Source of the DNA: Gordonia hongkongensis
GTDB lineage: Bacteria > Actinomycetota > Actinomycetes > Mycobacteriales > Mycobacteriaceae
Assembly: GCF_023078355.1 (NCBI RefSeq)
Contig: NZ_CP095553.1
Span: 49,583-113,582 of the forward strand
Reading direction: 5' to 3'
DNA: 64,000 bases
Numbering within the stretch: position 1 is the first letter of the stretch; the number at the start of each line of letters is the position of its first letter. The position numbers and the translations under genes were made by a program. The notes beneath the pieces are model-generated. The model did no database searches and was not told the origin of the DNA. It saw nothing but the letters and a program-made list of their open reading frames with translations. This document shows positions 21,298-64,000 of the stretch, piece by piece.

Positions 21298-22214
21298 ATG
21301 GCAGCGTCTGAGGCAATTCATCGAGACAGAGTGGTAGCCGTGATCAACGGCAAAGGGGGAGTCCTCAAGACCACCCTCACAGCTAACATCGGCGGCCTCT
21401 TGGCTCACAGCGGGTATCACGTGCTCCTGGGGACCTCGACCCACAGGGAAACCTGGCCGAAGACCTTGGCTACACGGAAACATCTACCGATGACGAGGGG
21501 GCGGCCCTAGCGCGAGGCCTCATCGTCGGAGGCGACATAGAGGTCGTCAAAGACGTTCGCCCTAACCTCGACGTCCTTCCCGGAGGCACGAAGTTGGAGG
21601 AAGCGACCGCCGCGCTGGTCGCCAGGGCGAGCCGTGATGCGGTGGGGGCGAAGCTCGCGCTAGCCTCCATTCTCAGCCCACTGACCAGTGAATACGACCT
21701 TGTGCTCATCGACTGCCCGCCCGGCGATGAAACCCTTCAAACAGCGGCTGTCGCCGCCGCTAGCTGGGCGTTGGTGCCCACAAAGACCGACGCCTCAAGC
21801 CTGAAAGGCCTGTACGCAGTCGCGAAACGACTCGAGTCGGTCCTCGACATCAATCCCGATCTCGACCTACTGGGCGTCGTGCTGGCCGGCGTCAGCACGT
21901 CGGCCACCACAGTCAAGAAGCGCGCCCGGACAGCGATTTCTGAGGCCTTCGACGACGACGCTGTCGTCTTCGAAGCGGCGGTGCGGCACTCCGAAGCCAC
22001 CGCAGAGGCAACCCGGGCCCGTGGACTGCTGGTTCACGAGCTGGACAACGTGGTACGCACAGGGCCGAAGTGGTATGAGATTCGCCGCGGCGAAGCCAAA
22101 CCCCAGTCTCTGGCCCCCCAGTCATCGTCATCTGTTGCCGACGACCTAATGGCTGTCGCCCAGGAACTGGTGCAACGTGTGACTGCCGCAGAAAGCGAGG
22201 CCGAAACAGCATGA
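21298..22214 (+). CDS. parA: ParA-family partition ATPase with apparent -1 frameshift
   Basis: ATG 21298 follows GGAGAGG. The first frame gives the deviant Walker A (INGKGGVLKTTLTANIGG). At the G4 run 21429-21432 the frame slips by -1; read across it, the protein continues LLGDLDPQGNLAEDLGY, then LVLIDCPPGDETLQTAA (Walker B), ATTVKKRARTAISEA and a C-terminal helix. One missing base would restore a normal ParA of about 305 residues. ParA moves plasmid copies apart using its centromere-binding partner, which overlaps by four bases. As the plasmid is presumably maintained, sequencing error is the likeliest cause. Confidence 0.8.
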
Positions 22215-22645
22215 CCGAGGAGACTCCGGATCGCATCATCTCAGGCCTACCCAGCCGTCCTACCAAGGCGGCCGAACCTGCTGGAGGGGACCTTCGCCGC
22301 CTACGGAAGAAGAACCGCGAGCAACAACCCCGGGTGACGGCAACTGGTCCGCAGAACCGAGCGCCGGCAACCACTCAGGCTGCACCTACTGCCCCTGCGG
22401 AGCGGTCCGAACCGCAGGAAGAACTCACAACGCGGTCGACGATCTACTTCCGTAAACCCAACCTCACACGAGCCCGCCGCGCATTCCGCGCCACACAGCA
22501 CCTGGAAGGGGACCGATCGTGGTCAGACTTCGTTGACAAAGCTGTGGCCGCCGAAACACGGCGACGAGAAGCCGCGCACAACCACGGCGACGCCTTCGGA
22601 GGCCCTGACGGGCCGCTAGCCGCAGGTCGACCCCTGGAGACCTAA
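22211..22645 (+). CDS. parB: Ribbon-helix-helix centromere-binding protein (ParB-like)
   Basis: 144 residues from an ATG overlapping the parA stop (ATGA). The N-terminal 80 residues are charged and disordered. The C-terminal part (RSTIYFRKPNLTRARRAFRA, then RSWSDFVDKAVAAETRRRE) is a ribbon-helix-helix: a beta strand, a helix rich in arginine, and a second helix ending the fold. Small RHH partners of ParA are typical of type Ib plasmid partition. It most likely binds the repeat region at 20840-21250 and stimulates ParA. Confidence 0.75.
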   Translation: MTEETPDRIISGLPSRPTKAAEPAGGDLRRLRKKNREQQPRVTATGPQNRAPATTQAAPTAPAERSEPQEELTTRSTIYFRKPNLTRARRAFRATQHLEGDRSWSDFVDKAVAAETRRREAAHNHGDAFGGPDGPLAAGRPLET

Positions 22646-22709: not shown

Positions 22710-24404
22710 GTGACCGGACGAGCCACCAGCGCTGACAATCACGCGATGATCGTCACCTCCACGAAGGTGCTGTCCCCGTCGGGGATCGTGTTGGTGGACA
22801 AGCCGGTGGATTCGGTCGACAAGCTCCTGCAGGTGTTGGAGTGGCGTCAGCGCCGGCAGCCGTTGTCCCCGGCGGGGTTGCCGGCGCAGGTGTGGGTGAT
22901 CGACGCCGCGTGCGCACAGCTCGGCTGGGGCCCGGACGATGTCGATCCGGGTGACGAGGCGGATTACTCCGATGAGGAGCTGCGCGAAGGCCGGATGAAG
23001 ACCGACGTGATCGCGCGCCTGGATGACGCCACCCGAGAGCTACTCGGCCCCTTCCTGACGCCGCAGGGTGAGGACGGATGGCATCTGTACCAGCCGGGGG
23101 AGGAGATCGGTTATCGCCTGCACCTGTCTCACACGGCCGGGAACCGCAAGCTGATGGTCGATGTGATCCTCGAGGGCTGGGCGTGGACTGCACGCATTAA
23201 CCATGACCGGATGGGCATCCTTGGCTCGGAAACCGCAGGCACGCTCATCGATTTCGAGGATGAGATGGACACCGCCCGTGAGTTGGCCCGACGGTTGTGC
23301 TGGCATGTCGACAATCTCGGTGTCCTGCCTGGGATCACCCCGGCACGTACCGGGGCGGTGATCCTCGACCGGGTCTTCCGGGACCGCCGCAAGACCGGTC
23401 GTGGCATCATCGTCGATGCGCCAGTTCCGTTGCCGCCCATCGATATAACCGACGCCGACGAGCTTGAACCGGTGATCGTGTGGTCGCGTGACTGGATCGA
23501 CACCGAGGAACTCGACGCCGCCGATGAGCTGGTGACGATCGACCAACGCGCCTCGTATCTGGCCAGTGCCGGCATGATCAACCTGGGATACGGCGAACTC
23601 GTCCACCACAGCACCGGCGCCGAGGAACTCGCCCACACCAGTAGCCCTCTGCCGTTCGGTGTCTGGCAGATCACGCTGCCGGCCGCCGACACCCTCGCTC
23701 TGCCGGACAAGCTGCCCCTGCCGCATCCGCGGATGCGCACCGACCGGCCCGTGACGACGTGGGTGACTACCGAGACGATCATCAGCCTGACTGCGCCCAT
23801 GCCGGATGGGGGAGCGGGCCTCGACATCGCGGATCTGGCGATCTCCGAGGCCTGGACCACCACCGACCAGGGGCAGGTGCTCAAGCGGTGGAAGGAACTG
23901 CTTGCTGCCGCCCGCAAAGCCGCTGTGGAGGCCGATGACCCAATCCTCAAGTCGATGGTCACCGACATCTACAAGGGCTACCTCGGTCGCATCGCCGGTG
24001 ACCGCAACTGGGATTCCCACATGCGCCACCACTACCAGCCGATCTGGGCTGCGGCCATCAAGGCTCACGCCCGCCACCGCTCCCGCGCCAAAGCTATGAA
24101 ACTCGCACGCGAACACAACATTTGGCCCATCAAAGGCCTCACTGACGCTTGGACCTACCTCGCACCCGCGGGTGCCGATCTCGCCGACGAACTGACCTAC
24201 CTTGGCAAGTTCGTGATCGAGAAGCGGCGCCCGCTCGACGACGACGTCATCCTCGCTCTGCTCTCAGCAACTACACCCACGGAGGTTCGCAAGGCGATCA
24301 ACACCGCCTACACTGCCTCCGGCCAACCAGACGACGACGACTCCGCCACAACCGATCTCACACCCGAGAATGACACGGCCACCACCGCGGAGGTGGTGAG
24401 CTGA
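22710..24404 (+). CDS. Large plasmid protein; candidate telomere-associated (Tap-like) protein
   Basis: 564 residues from GTG 22710 behind AAAGGTGG (alternatives 22689 and 22746). No textbook domain is complete. TIDQRASYLASAGMINLGYG (near residues 284-303) resembles polymerase motif A (DxxSLYPS-like), as in protein-primed replication proteins, but no matching motif C was seen. The C-terminal third is helical and basic (AAIKAHARHRSRAKAMKLAR). It overlaps by one base an HTH protein, recalling the tap-tpg pair of actinobacterial linear replicons, in which Tap recruits the terminal protein to telomeres. This identity is an inference; a plain plasmid regulator is the alternative. Confidence 0.4.
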   Translation: MTGRATSADNHAMIVTSTKVLSPSGIVLVDKPVDSVDKLLQVLEWRQRRQPLSPAGLPAQVWVIDAACAQLGWGPDDVDPGDEADYSDEELREGRMKTDVIARLDDATRELLGPFLTPQGEDGWHLYQPGEEIGYRLHLSHTAGNRKLMVDVILEGWAWTARINHDRMGILGSETAGTLIDFEDEMDTARELARRLCWHVDNLGVLPGITPARTGAVILDRVFRDRRKTGRGIIVDAPVPLPPIDITDADELEPVIVWSRDWIDTEELDAADELVTIDQRASYLASAGMINLGYGELVHHSTGAEELAHTSSPLPFGVWQITLPAADTLALPDKLPLPHPRMRTDRPVTTWVTTETIISLTAPMPDGGAGLDIADLAISEAWTTTDQGQVLKRWKELLAAARKAAVEADDPILKSMVTDIYKGYLGRIAGDRNWDSHMRHHYQPIWAAAIKAHARHRSRAKAMKLAREHNIWPIKGLTDAWTYLAPAGADLADELTYLGKFVIEKRRPLDDDVILALLSATTPTEVRKAINTAYTASGQPDDDDSATTDLTPENDTATTAEVVS

Positions 24405-25180
24405 TGGCCCAGTTCCGGCCGCGCCGTCGCGAACGCCGCGACGAACCCACCGCCACCACCACCGCGGCCGCCGGCCGGCAGGTCTCCGTCGCAGCCGGCA
24501 CCGCGGCTGATCTCGCGAGCGCCGATGCGGGTCTGGTGGGGGAGCGCACCCCTACCGACCACCTCGGCACTATCGGCTACGACGCCGCCTGTAAAGCCGC
24601 CCAGGACGCCGGCCGCCGCCCACCCTCGCGGCGCACCTTCCGCCGCTGGAAACAACAGGGGCGCATCCCCGATGACCGCACCGCCGACCTCGTCGCTCGC
24701 CGCGCCGAGATCACCCGCATGGGCGGTGTTGACGGAGCCGCACGACAACTCGGCCGCTCACCGAGTGCCGTCTACGACTGGCGGGCCGGGCGCACCAAGA
24801 GCTTGCGCCCCGACGCTCAGGGTCGCCTCGTCGACGCACAGGTGGCGCAGCGCCTCGTCGACAGCGGCGTCGACGTCTCCCGAATGCGACCGACCATCCA
24901 CTTCACCGCCGACGTCCACGCCCGCACCGACGGCGGCAACTACGACTACCGGATGGCCAAATCCTTCGACTTTGGCGGCCCCCGGGGCCTCGACCACACC
25001 CAGATGAGCCGCCAGCAGATCGCTGCCCTCGGCGACGCGTTGGCTCGTGACGACCACGCCCGCGTCGCGGCCATCCTCGAGGAACATGCCTCGGTCAACT
25101 TCGCCGCCTTCGACGACTTCGACGACGACACCGGATTTCACTTCGACGGCGTCCGCGACTTCCGCATCGACTGGAACTGA
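24404..25180 (+). CDS. HTH protein; candidate telomere terminal protein (Tpg-like)
   Basis: 258 residues, starting one base inside the upstream stop. A central HTH reads RMGGVDGAARQLGRSPSAVY then DWRAGRTKSLRP, the GGxxxAARxLGxSxxxVxxWxxG pattern found in actinobacterial terminal proteins (Tpg) and related regulators. An upstream segment (PSRRTFRRWKQQGRIPDD) could be a second HTH. The C-terminal 80 residues are acidic (FAAFDDFDDDTGFHFDG), unlike known Tpg. If it is a Tpg, a serine or tyrosine would link to the 5' DNA end, which cannot be picked out here. Confidence 0.45.
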   Translation: MAQFRPRRRERRDEPTATTTAAAGRQVSVAAGTAADLASADAGLVGERTPTDHLGTIGYDAACKAAQDAGRRPPSRRTFRRWKQQGRIPDDRTADLVARRAEITRMGGVDGAARQLGRSPSAVYDWRAGRTKSLRPDAQGRLVDAQVAQRLVDSGVDVSRMRPTIHFTADVHARTDGGNYDYRMAKSFDFGGPRGLDHTQMSRQQIAALGDALARDDHARVAAILEEHASVNFAAFDDFDDDTGFHFDGVRDFRIDWN

Positions 25181-25607: not shown

Positions 25608-26174
25608 ATGGCACACGACGTAGGCCAGGGCTCGTTTGACGAGCTGGCCCCCGAGCTGTTCACCGTGGCCACTGTCGACACCCCGAACTCGGGTTACCGG
25701 GTGCCGGCGGTGCTGGAGATCGTCGGCGTCACCTACCGCCAGCTCGACTACTGGGCCCGCACCGGGCTGGTCACACCGAGCGTGCAGGCCGCCGCCGGGT
25801 CCGGGTCGCAGCGTCTCTACAGCTTCCGCGACATCCTCGCGCTCAAGATTGTCAAACGACTCCTCGACGCCGGGATCTCGTTGCGCAACATCCGCACCGC
25901 GGTCGAGTTCCTCGCCGACCGCGGTACCACCGACCTCGCGCAAACGACCCTGATTAGCGACGGCACCACCGTCTACGAGGCCACCTCCGATGCTGAGATC
26001 ATCGACCTGCTCCACGGCGGGCAAGGTGTCTTCGCCATCGCCGTTGGCCACGCCCTGACCGATCTGGCCGGCACCGTGCACCAATTCCCCGCCGAAGACG
26101 CCACCCCCACCGCAGCGGCGGCCGTCGACGACCTCGCGCAGCGATGCAATGCAGCCGTGTCCGAAGCAGTCTGA
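25608..26174 (+). CDS. MerR-family regulator closely resembling mycobacterial Rv1828
   Basis: 188 residues from ATG 25608 behind GAAGGGA. The winged-helix core reads GVTYRQLDYWARTGLVTPSV, then GSGSQRLYSFRDILALKIVK and LLDAGISLRNIRTAVEFL. The C-terminal part keeps LISDGTTVYEATSDAEIIDL and GGQGVFAIAVG. This order and wording match the conserved chromosomal regulator Rv1828 of mycobacteria and related genera, so this is a plasmid-borne paralogue. It may rewire the host regulon or control plasmid genes. No metal- or drug-binding cysteines are seen. Confidence 0.88.
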   Translation: MAHDVGQGSFDELAPELFTVATVDTPNSGYRVPAVLEIVGVTYRQLDYWARTGLVTPSVQAAAGSGSQRLYSFRDILALKIVKRLLDAGISLRNIRTAVEFLADRGTTDLAQTTLISDGTTVYEATSDAEIIDLLHGGQGVFAIAVGHALTDLAGTVHQFPAEDATPTAAAAVDDLAQRCNAAVSEAV

Positions 26175-26201
26175 TCAACGAAGCAACTGGAGGTCTGTGT
26201 A

Positions 26202-26672
26202 GTGGTTGACGTGCTGTCGAAGCCAGTGGGCGTCTACATGATGACGCTGTGGTGGCATTCCCGCGGCGACGAGGTCGCCAATGCCGAACTCGCCGACATC
26301 CTCACCGCACGAGGATTTCTCGACGCCACAGCGGACATGAGTGTGTCGCGAGAGCGCAGTGCTGCGGTGCATGCGGCGTCCGAAGACGAGACTTCCCGCG
26401 AGCTGCTGGCGCAGTGGTGTGTCACAACCCGTGCGCGCCGTGGGGGAGCGGGTGTGCAACACCCGTCCCACTGGCTGCCGCAGGCAACCGCGGCCATGGC
26501 CGCAGAGACCGACCCCGACGCCGTGAACCGCCAACACCATCTGGTGATCGACATGGTGACCAAGCTCCCGCCCTCCGACGCTGCCGACCCCGCCGTCTCC
26601 CAGCAGATCGCCGAGCACTTCCACACCTACAACACCCACGCCATCCACCAAGGCCGCAGTCCGGGCCGATAG
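26202..26672 (+). CDS. Hypothetical protein, 156 aa
   Basis: GTG 26202 follows an AACTGGAGGT ribosome site. A soluble helical protein with KPVGVYMMTLWWHSRGDEVA at the N-terminus and HHLVIDMVTKLPPSDAADPA later. No motif, signal peptide or membrane segment. It lies between the Rv1828-like regulator and the ribonuclease and is probably cotranscribed with them. Function unknown. Confidence 0.6.
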   Translation: MVDVLSKPVGVYMMTLWWHSRGDEVANAELADILTARGFLDATADMSVSRERSAAVHAASEDETSRELLAQWCVTTRARRGGAGVQHPSHWLPQATAAMAAETDPDAVNRQHHLVIDMVTKLPPSDAADPAVSQQIAEHFHTYNTHAIHQGRSPGR

Positions 26673-26688
26673 CCACACGAGTGACCAG

Positions 26689-28656
26689 ATGACCACCACT
26701 GCCACGCAGTGCGCGTTGATGATCGACGCGTCGACCACCCGGGATCGTGATGACGCGTTCACTGTCACCCCCACCGCCACGGGATGGGATGTGACGGTGT
26801 TGGTGGCCAACGTGGCCGATCTGGTACCGGCCGGGTCGCCGGTAGACCGCACCGCCGCGACCCGGGTGGAAACTCGCTACCGCGCCACGGGCACGGTGCC
26901 GATGCTCGGAGCGCAGCTCGAGCACGCCGCAACGCTGTCGGCCACCCAGGATCGGGACGCTCTGGCCATCCGCCTGCGGGTGTCCGCCGACGGCGACGTG
27001 ACTCTGGCCGACCTCGGCCGTGAAGTCCTGTTGGCCGGGTCGTGTGTGGCGATCACTCACGATCAGGTCACCACGATCCTCGACAACCCCGAGCACGCCC
27101 ACCACGGGCAGTTGTCGGCGTCCGCGCAGCTGGCGCAGGTGTTGACCGGTCGGCGGCGCGCAGCGGGGGCGTTCGTGGTCTACGACCTGACCCGCGGGCT
27201 GGTCTCAGGTGAAGACGGCCGGCTGCTGGCCTTACCGGAGGGCCACAACGCCGCGGCGTATGTGATCGTTGCGGAGTTGATGATCGCCGTGAATACGGTT
27301 GTGGCGCAGTACGCCATCGATGCCGAGCTGCCGATCCTGTTCCGCAATCACCTCCGCAATCCCGTCGCACCCGCTGATGTCGACCGGCTCGCGGATCTGG
27401 CCGCCGCGCTGTCCACGGTCACCACCACCGCCGAACTGGCGGCGTTGCAAGGCCAGCTCAACACCGCGATCTCCAAAGCCACCTACGGCGCGACCGTCCG
27501 CGGGCACATCGGATTGCAGGTCCCGGCATACACGCACGCGACCTCGCCGTTGCGCCGCTACGCCGACCTGGTCACCCAACGCCAACTCCTGGCCCACCTC
27601 GACGACACCCAGTTGCCCTACACCGCAGAACAGTTGGCCACCATCGCCGACGCCCTGGCCGCGCTCACCGCCGAACGTGACGCCGACTCCGAGGCAGCGC
27701 AGAAAGCCCGCACCCGCCGAGCGAACGAAGCAGCGATCGCCGCCGGCGACCTGTCGCACATGAACGACCGCGAGTTCTTGCGCGTGCTACGCCTGGGCAC
27801 CCAAGCCGCACCACCGGCATCGGTGGCCACCGAACTCACCGAACGCGCCACAGCCGGCCGGTTACACGCGGGGCACGTCGCGGTGCTCTACACCACCGAT
27901 CACCCTGACTGGAAGACTCTGCGCGCCAACCTCACCGCACAGTTACGTGCCGAGCACGCGTACCTGGCGCCGTCGGCGATCTCGGCACTCCAGCAGATCG
28001 ACGGCGGACAGATCGTCACCCCCACCCTCGACACCGACATCACCGGCCCACCCCACCAACGCACCTTCGCCACCCGCGCCCACCTCGAGGACATGACCAC
28101 CCGTTGGCACACCGGCCCGGTCAAGAAGGCCACCGAACACGCCGCCCTGTGGGACCTGCTCGACATCATCGGCCACCACACCCCGAGCGCCGACCCCACC
28201 ACGCCACCACCCACACCGGAGCCGGAACCCGAGGGCGAGTCCGTGCCGGCGCCGACGGCGGTCGCCACCCATGCCGAGCCGGCTGTCCCGACAGTCTCCG
28301 TGCCGGGCGAGGGAACCTGGGATGCGTTCGCACTGCATGCCGCGCTCGGCGGCGACGACGACTCCCGGCGTAAGCGCCGCCGCGCTAACGCCCTGAGAAA
28401 CCCGGTCGGCTGGCTGACCACCCTCGCCGCCTCGATCGGCGCCGGCGAGCTGCATGTCGGCACCCACCCCGAGGGCCCACCCCATCAGCGGATGTTCACC
28501 GTCACCCTCACTGCCGGACCCGTCCGCGCTACCGCGGCCGCATCGACGATCAAGGCGGCCAAGACTGCTGCCGCCCACGCCGCAGTCACCGGCCTGTTCG
28601 ACAACCCACCAGCGGTGGCCGCCACCACTGCGCACCACCACGCTGGCGGGGCATGA
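26689..28656 (+). CDS. RNB-domain (RNase II-type) exoribonuclease with C-terminal dsRNA-binding domain
   Basis: 655 residues. The RNB catalytic acid cluster is present at the N-terminus (LMIDASTTRDRDDAFTV; D13, D19, D21, D22), and the later YTHATSPLRRYADL carries the conserved HxTSPLRRY. The N-terminal cold-shock/OB domains of RNase II/R are absent, so the catalytic domain starts at once. After an acidic proline-rich linker the last 90 residues read RNPVGWLTTLAASIG and HQRMFTVTLTAG, then ASTIKAAKTAAAHAAVTGLF, the alpha-beta-beta-beta-alpha outline of a dsRNA-binding domain. RNB plus dsRBD is an unusual pairing. Likely degrades structured RNA in the 3' to 5' direction. Confidence 0.8.
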   Translation: MTTTATQCALMIDASTTRDRDDAFTVTPTATGWDVTVLVANVADLVPAGSPVDRTAATRVETRYRATGTVPMLGAQLEHAATLSATQDRDALAIRLRVSADGDVTLADLGREVLLAGSCVAITHDQVTTILDNPEHAHHGQLSASAQLAQVLTGRRRAAGAFVVYDLTRGLVSGEDGRLLALPEGHNAAAYVIVAELMIAVNTVVAQYAIDAELPILFRNHLRNPVAPADVDRLADLAAALSTVTTTAELAALQGQLNTAISKATYGATVRGHIGLQVPAYTHATSPLRRYADLVTQRQLLAHLDDTQLPYTAEQLATIADALAALTAERDADSEAAQKARTRRANEAAIAAGDLSHMNDREFLRVLRLGTQAAPPASVATELTERATAGRLHAGHVAVLYTTDHPDWKTLRANLTAQLRAEHAYLAPSAISALQQIDGGQIVTPTLDTDITGPPHQRTFATRAHLEDMTTRWHTGPVKKATEHAALWDLLDIIGHHTPSADPTTPPPTPEPEPEGESVPAPTAVATHAEPAVPTVSVPGEGTWDAFALHAALGGDDDSRRKRRRANALRNPVGWLTTLAASIGAGELHVGTHPEGPPHQRMFTVTLTAGPVRATAAASTIKAAKTAAAHAAVTGLFDNPPAVAATTAHHHAGGA

Positions 28657-63279: not shown

Positions 63280-63745
63280 TCTAACTGGGTCGGGAATATC
63301 ATTCGACCGGTGTCTGAAGGCTGAAAACGGATCTGTTGCAGCTGATTCCAGAGTTCGCCTTCGCTGACGTCGACGTCGGTCAGTGATTGGGACCGGGTCT
63401 AGCGGCTCGCTGAGAGCCGCCGTGGCGGGGTAGGTGAGCGCCTAACTCGGCTACCCCGCCACGGTGCCCGGTTCAGACTCCCAGACACCGACAGGTTGAA
63501 GGGGGGGTGCATGGTGGGGGTCCCCTCCCTCCCCTGTGCGAGCGCTCTCTCGTTGGGTGTGGCAACAGAGCAACGCGACGGTAACGAATAGCAAACCTCC
63601 GATTCGCTGACATGACGGGCGCGCGCCGGCCCTTTTGGTTGCAATGAACGGTCGTGGTGGTCTCAGATTTCCGTAGGGAATCGGTTGTGTAGCAATGGTT
63701 TTTAATTCTGTTGTGCGGTAGTATGTTTCATATGGAGTCAGAGAG
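63280..63745. other. Gene-free region after the IetAS-like pair, with one strong hairpin
   Basis: 466 bases; no convincing gene. A hairpin at 63420-63464 is listed separately. The stretch 63480-63730 shows mixed low-complexity and AT-richer parts (for example near 63690-63732), in contrast to the palindromic sequence that follows. Confidence 0.45.
63420..63464. terminator. Perfect 14-bp inverted repeat, probable terminator
   Basis: CCGTGGCGGGGTAG (63420-63433) and its exact complement (63451-63464) flank a 17-base loop, about 140 bases after the protease gene. No T run, as is common for high-GC intrinsic terminators. Confidence 0.65.
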
Positions 63746-64000
63746 CGCCCGCAGGGCGGTCGGTGGGTGTGGGTGCAGGGTCGGCCGCAGGCCGGCACGG
63801 CGGCGTCCAGGCCCGTTGCACGGCGGGAGTCGTGATAGACTGTGCGACATGAAACACGGTGCACCACAACCACCTTCCAGCAAATCGGCCGTAGGCCGAT
63901 GGGGAGCGGGACACCGAAACGTTACGCCACTACGGCGCCGCTTGCGGCGCCCTTCGGGCGCGCTTGCGCGCCGAACCCCGACGGGGCGCTTGCGCCCCGG
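63746..64000. repeat. Cluster of GC-rich palindromes at the right edge, telomere-like
   Basis: Seven palindromes in 255 bases: CGCCC-GCA-GGGCG (63746-63758), CGGCC-GCA-GGCCG (63782-63794), ATCGGCC-GTA-GGCCGAT (63884-63900), GGCGCCGC-TT-GCGGCGCC (63934-63951), GGCGCGC-TT-GCGCGCC (63957-63972), CCCCG-A-CGGGG (63976-63986) and CGGGGCGC-TT-GCGCCCCG (63982-63999). The three large ones share CGCTTGCG at the centre. Closely packed palindromes with three-base loops are a hallmark of the telomeres of actinobacterial linear replicons. Whether the molecule ends here cannot be seen. Confidence 0.55.

Follow-up and report, generated by a model that had tools for sequence, protein, structure and literature searches.

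Terminal hairpins, an inverted repeat and a distant Tap/Tpg-like gene pair on a very likely linear plasmid of Gordonia hongkongensis

The window analyzed here is a 64,000-nucleotide stretch of Gordonia hongkongensis DNA (C2:49583-113582) from C2, a contig of 113,582 bases in a two-contig genome of 5.41 Mb. It carries a cluster of hairpins at its right edge and, farther inside, two adjacent genes resembling those of the telomere proteins Tap and Tpg. The initial annotation had read these two features as a linear plasmid ending here and proposed several checks, among them whether the contig finishes at or just after 64000 and whether an inverted copy lies at its opposite end. Both of these came out as expected, since base 64000 is the final base of C2 and a matching copy is present at the other tip. 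The features concerned are the following (P1 to P6 are numbered from the tip inwards, and G040 is another Gordonia genome).

63361..64000, + strand: right-hand copy of the terminal inverted repeat; of the 669 columns aligned with the left copy, 547 are identical (82%) and 38 are gap columns
C2:2-661, minus strand: left copy of the terminal inverted repeat
63982..63999, + strand: P1, outermost hairpin, 8-bp stem, TT loop on the 3'-ending strand, centre CGCTTGCG; 4 of 7 pairs compensatory versus G040
63957..63972, + strand: P2 hairpin, 7-bp stem, TT loop, centre CGCTTGCG; G040 counterpart imperfect by eye
63934..63951, + strand: P3 hairpin, 8-bp stem, TT loop, centre CGCTTGCG; 2 of 8 pairs compensatory versus G040
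63884..63900, + strand: P4 hairpin, 7-bp stem, GTA loop; one pair of seven compensatory, changed from G-C to A-T when the left and right ends of C2 are compared
63782..63794, + strand: P5 hairpin, 5-bp stem, GCA loop; seen in all nine ends inspected
63746..63758, + strand: P6 hairpin, 5-bp stem, GCA loop
22689..24404, + strand: Tap-like gene, 571 amino acids, predicted protein-primed family-B-like DNA polymerase with putative catalytic D285 and D486
24404..25180, + strand: Tpg-like terminal protein gene, 258 amino acids, sharing one base with the Tap stop codon

The left contig end, which has one extra T, begins TCCGGGGCGC and the right one CCGGGGCGC. The two copies of the repeat are almost identical over the outermost 70 bases, and their inner portion has diverged, with numerous small gaps. 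Under a fixed rule (perfect stem of at least 5, loop of at most 4), positions 63746 to 64000 contain six perfect hairpins. Seven palindromes had been counted there previously; the seventh fails the stem and loop rule, and the three with the shared centre and the two with GCA loops were recovered. Four stems of at least 7 bp were observed, where dinucleotide shuffles average 0.23 (only 1 of 2,000 shuffles reaches four), and this stretch ranks best in perfect hairpins among the 1,251 stretches of that length (255 bases) compared across the window. Its folding energy is only mildly unusual on the + strand (z of -1.74, 9 of 200 shuffles equally good), and on the minus strand z is -1.38 (20 of 200). 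The telomere signal is a series of perfect hairpins rather than overall single-strand stability.

Compensatory changes, with zero broken pairs, were found in P1 and P3 when compared with G040 and in P4 when one end of C2 was compared with the other. These hairpins were picked by hand, P2, P5 and P6 being outside the count. In the first hairpin of the Rhodococcus telomeres, 4 of 8 pairs are compensatory across seven variants. The loops also follow a strand rule: in 26 of 29 distinct hairpins the 5' strand carries TNC or AA, which places GNA or TT on the 3'-ending strand, and none is reversed. The count is based on 21 of the 46 non-Gordonia ends, namely those where Rhodococcus-type terminal hairpins are visible, together with 8 of the 10 Gordonia ends (the left end of pPAE01 and G040 C75 lie outside it). 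By group, all 10 distinct Gordonia hairpins obey the rule, as do 16 of 19 of the Rhodococcus type, the remaining three fitting neither class; because the ends are related, these are not counts of independent events. Two additional ends, from genomes G099 and G118, have TNC or AA loops in 4 of 6 hairpins, again with none reversed. GNA triloops are known to form very stable DNA hairpins. The strand bias agrees with folding of a 3' overhang, and the rule may aid the recognition of such telomeres. Two marks of an actinobacterial invertron are found in C2, namely, inverted terminal repeats at the two replicon ends and clustered terminal palindromes that can fold on the 3' strand.

A distant-mode search with the terminal repeat retrieved three plasmid records, all from Gordonia and all with the repeat located at the record ends: NZ_CP128198 (70,053 bases, deposited as circular), pSMJS1.2 (104,860 bases, linear) and pPAE01 (127,051 bases, circular). 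They share the telomere with the window at 77 to 90% identity and the Tap/Tpg-like gene pair at 95 to 99.5%, but the records stop inside the telomere, approximately 6 bases short in NZ_CP128198 (Swx-4), 86 in pSMJS1.2 and 77 at the right end of pPAE01, and only the inner 50 bases of the telomere remain at the left end of pPAE01. That two of the three, as well as pVAPN1571, were deposited as circular counts against linearity, and the two relatives favor the view that the plasmid is circular in the cell, its hairpinned repeats being an inverted-repeat junction, a recombination site or terminators opened by the assembler. Nevertheless, four separate records end at the same point or within about 90 bases of it (the left end of pPAE01 is the exception), the copies are merely 82 to 92% alike in the three records that have both ends, pSMJS1.2 was deposited as linear, and so were pBD2 and pNSL1, which carry homologues of the gene pair. 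We regard circularity as very improbable. Two Gordonia plasmids deposited as circular, NZ_CP128198.1 and CP049837.1 (the latter with a telomere at its right end only), are probably linear.

The two genes at 22.7 to 25.2 kb had been labeled a Tap/Tpg-like pair, a description that profile comparisons uphold at the level of remote homology: they are a distant Tap/Tpg pair. The order of the Tap equivalog definition, tap immediately followed by tpg, is the one found here, with a one-base overlap of the open reading frames (ORFs), and the two genes are adjacent in all nine genome loci read. Ten of the 12 members of the family alignment match the Tap model NF047542 (telomere_Tap; best E value, 6.4e-9), and the single bit score seen for these matches is 29.7, far under the cut-off of 600. 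The window protein was classed as Tap-like. The profile of the Tap-like family matches a Streptomyces Tap-like protein with 97% probability; that protein in turn matches telomere_Tap at E 2.2e-91 and the protein encoded directly after it telomere_Tpg at 8.3e-6, both under the curated cut-offs. On the Tpg side, the family profile matches Streptomyces Tpg with a probability of 94% (E 1.6e-7) over 50 columns that cover the helix-turn-helix only, and 6 of 12 alignment members match NF047541 weakly (best E value, 0.0019). The window proteins themselves weigh against the assignment. For the window Tap, neither NF047542 (at E 0.1) nor any Pfam domain (at E 1) gives a match; the window Tpg has no NF047541 match, its hits being limited to the carph-isopro domain model and, weakly, to helix-turn-helix models.

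The system resembles the Tap-Tpg pair of Streptomyces (NF047542, NF047541; PMC4513846, PMC3572947) in gene order, with tap directly followed by a Tpg-sized ORF in 16 of 19 loci read, in Tap profile homology, in the helix-turn-helix of Tpg and in the predicted Tap fold. It differs in that the window Tap lacks a match to a helix-turn-helix model and is only 18 to 24% identical to Streptomyces and Streptomyces-like Taps, and in that its Tpg has 258 amino acids versus approximately 185. Closer homologues are found on Rhodococcus and Prescottella plasmid records (94 and 11 for the Tap-like protein, 93 and 11 for the Tpg-like protein), at about 40 to 46% identity among the matches listed. In the part of the report on Rhodococcus WAY2 available to us, the three linear replicons are described as carrying distant tap and tpg homologues (PMC7276702); plasmid records of matching length are among the hits obtained here.

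The contig end, the inverted copy and the hairpins support the proposal of a linear plasmid ending here. Very likely, C2 is a linear plasmid, and two proteins that it encodes are likely to complete its ends: a probable terminal protein (Tpg-like), which would act as primer, and a Tap-like protein that is predicted to be a diverged phi29-type family-B polymerase. Tips closed covalently by a protelomerase, an arrangement known from Borrelia and phage N15, would also give inverted ends rich in hairpins. Against this, the outermost bases of C2 form several distinct palindromes and the plasmid carries a Tap/Tpg-like pair; although no search aimed at a protelomerase gene was made, we consider this explanation extremely improbable. 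For the linear plasmid with protein-completed ends, the steps might be as follows. Replication from a presumed internal origin would leave the 3'-ending strand single at both tips, and this strand would fold into P1 to P6, each of which has a GNA or TT loop. The hairpins would then be bound by Tap, which would position the terminal protein and attach the first nucleotides to a Thr or Ser of it, and host polymerases would complete the gap. The end sequence is 5'-CCGGGG..., so a start with dCMP is predicted. In the portion of the work on Streptomyces Tpg available to us, the nucleotide is attached at Thr114, Ser being also functional (PMC3572947).

The addition of nucleotides to a terminal protein has been published for the Streptomyces Tap, i.e., not for the window protein, and the authors who demonstrated this polymerization found no polymerase motif and named a new class (PMC4513846). 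Predicted models and one borderline profile score point to a more specific assignment. The predicted model of the window Tap has a family-B (phi29-type) fold over residues 16 to 547, and the model of a Streptomyces Tap is likewise family-B. For profile comparison we used the A4 alignment, with 31 of the 46 Taps; the 15 excluded are two long proteins with an altered motif A (L111 and L113) and 13 others, mostly near-duplicates. In the hhalign comparison, the columns of window residues D285 and D486 align with phage D246 and D455. Both aspartates, that of motif A and the second of motif C, are present in 44 of the 46 Taps, in all 31 members of A4 and in three of three further Gordonia Taps. In family-B polymerases, the aspartates of motifs A and C bind metal. 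When the phi29 polymerase alone was compared with A4, the E value was 0.37, motif A being aligned nonetheless. Points of likeness to phi29-type polymerases are therefore the predicted fold, both aspartates, an LGxxxxE motif and the adjoining terminal-protein gene. On the side of the differences, identity is approximately 10%, the Tap has no DxE in its first strand, DTDS is reduced and motif B is rewritten.

A number of results weigh against this assignment. TM-scores are low, approximately 0.37 to 0.43 for the window model and 0.27 to 0.38 for the Streptomyces model, with a root mean square deviation (rmsd) of at least 6. Predicted folds at this level (TM of about 0.3 to 0.4, rmsd of 6) support family membership, not detail. 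A4 against the phage polymerase profile gave an hhalign E value of 0.0055 and a probability of just 6.6%, a score that 0 of 200 shuffles reach. The Streptomyces-led alignment A6 gave 22.2 against the same profile, reached by 2 of 100 shuffles, and the narrow A3 gave 20.1, with no signal in either. A search of PDB sequences with A4 returned nothing up to an E value of 10, and a polymerase model is absent among the 18 Pfam families listed at E 1 for the 31 members of A4. The first Asp of DTDS is missing (the motif is reduced to TDS, TDA or SDC) and most of motif B is not retained: neither the full DTDS nor the full Kx3NSxYG signature is present, G433 being kept in all 31 members of A4 and position 434 being K or R in 29 of them. 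Because of these incomplete signatures, Tap was classed as a diverged relative and not as a canonical family-B member. Finally, the two long Tap-like proteins, L111 (G099:C16) and L113 (G298:C5), are without the motif A Asp.

In a rival reading, the telomere is real and Tap only binds it and recruits, its polymerase-like fold being an old, inactive scaffold and a host polymerase doing the priming. The degraded motif B and first Asp of DTDS, the lack of a DxE exonuclease pair in the first predicted strand and the loss of the motif A Asp in the two long relatives from G099 and G298 would fit. However, both aspartates are kept almost throughout, and Streptomyces Tap and Tpg alone suffice to yield a 13-nt product (PMC4513846), so we consider a purely recruiting role unlikely. 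Judged by the predicted fold and the conserved residues, Tap is probably a diverged phi29-type family-B DNA polymerase with D285/D486 as its catalytic pair. If so, it follows that actinobacterial linear chromosomes and plasmids would patch their telomeres with a captured phage-like polymerase/terminal-protein pair, which would connect the telomeres of actinobacteria with the protein-primed replication of phages. The predicted phi29-type fold and the two named aspartates make the polymerase class of Tap directly testable. In the titles and abstract openings listed for open-licence papers (closed papers and preprints being outside this scope), we found no statement of Tap as a family-B polymerase and no description of a Gordonia telomere. 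The terms Streptomyces, telomer, actinobacteria, linear plasmid and terminal protein are all absent from a family-B review (PMC7544198). The 3'-5' exonuclease motif DxE was looked for in residues 19 to 22, the first predicted strand and the presumed counterpart of the exonuclease strand, and none was found there. L111 and L113 exceed 1,100 amino acids and come from other genera of the family to which the window belongs; their motif A Asp is replaced by Glu, motif C is altered, and they are possibly dead polymerases fused to something else.

Tap was also evaluated as a predictor of telomeric ends. A search with the Tap alignment found four positives among 59 Gordonia genomes (G000, G040, G002 and G012). 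In G040, Tap and Tpg sit on a contig that begins with a telomere. The G002 contig C2 (213,428 bases) had been missed by the telomere DNA search, and its ends were retrieved solely because of its Tap. They form an inverted repeat of 379 columns (78.6%) from base 1, with hairpins bearing TGC and AA loops, and the contig begins at the AA of an apparently cut outer hairpin. In Gordonia, Tap has therefore predicted a telomere in the one contig that was testable. Other results speak against a general rule. In G012, Tap is encoded on a fragment of 10.8 kb that has no telomeric ends and is left out of that count, and of 20 Tap-bearing contigs from other genera of the family (judged by eye; G292:C5 carries only a Tap fragment), six have telomere-like hairpins at both ends, five at one and nine at none. 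Left and right ends are alike in six of the 20, and in a seventh only at an offset. Some hairpin-less contigs may be assemblies that stop short of the tips, and the rule may hold only where assemblies reach them, or less often than thought. In two Tap-bearing contigs of 7.8 and 8.7 Mb (G287:C2 and G292:C6), the inverted ends are identical over the 1,500 bases compared and the first 300 have no telomere-like hairpins; these assemblies may stop inside a long repeat.

The comparison with Rhodococcus telomeres, also proposed at the outset, revealed a shared architecture and a different sequence. The Rhodococcus invertrons (pBD2, pNSL1 and pRHL1 type) share with the window the inverted repeats (in many of them), GNA loops on the 3' strand of the terminal hairpins, and homologues of both proteins. 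However, the window's telomere starts CCGGGGCGCAAGC versus CCGCGGCGCT in Rhodococcus, and it has three consecutive outer hairpins with TT loops, a loop found at 3 of 21 Rhodococcus-type ends (e.g., the left end of pBD2). The central motif of Rhodococcus telomere palindromes is GCTXCGC in the part of the source available to us (PMC7276702); here the outer three centres are CGCTTGCG and the inner ones GGCCTACGGCC and GGCCTGCGGCC. The Gordonia telomere is a new example of an already-known type.

Telomere DNA matches were found in three of the 59 Gordonia genomes, i.e., the own genome, G040 and G021. Positions 1 to 65 of G040:C75, immediately before the telomere, are foreign-looking and contain AGATGTGTATAAGAGACAG, which we take to be a Nextera adapter. 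The G021 match is a subterminal telomere fragment inside a contig (G021:C49, 1652-2011) whose start resembles transposase sequence by eye; the outer hairpins had no match in this genome, nor did the Tap search give any hit there, and the fragment is perhaps a relic. The plasmids NZ_CP128198, NZ_CP123383, CP049837 and pNSL1 all have a DUF3846 gene no farther than about 1.8 kb from an end, and pNSL1 has one at both ends.

Further features of the window are listed below.

63420..63464, strand not assigned: long internal inverted repeat close to the inner end of the terminal repeat, with arms of 19 nt that are 89% complementary, kept at both contig ends
63692..63734, minus strand: unpaired AT-rich block CATATGAAACATACTACCGCACAACAGAATTAAAAACCATTGC, near-identical in seven ends, first half retained in both G040 ends
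21594..22214, + strand: ParA-like partition ATPase gene, upstream of the Tap/Tpg-like pair
22211..22645, + strand: ParB-like centromere-binding protein gene (PF18064, E 2.8e-12)

The AT-rich block is possibly a protein site. Within the terminal repeat, TGTTTCAT occurs at 63723-63730 (nine of nine aligned ends) and its inverse TGAAACA at 63849-63856 (seven of nine), with approximately 120 bases between them, and the two are perhaps a protein-binding pair. After the Tap/Tpg-like pair, positions 25608 to 28656 encode a regulator of the MerR type and a ribonuclease that combines RNB with a double-stranded RNA binding domain; the two genes are annotated together in all three related plasmids and lie close to tap-tpg in one of them.
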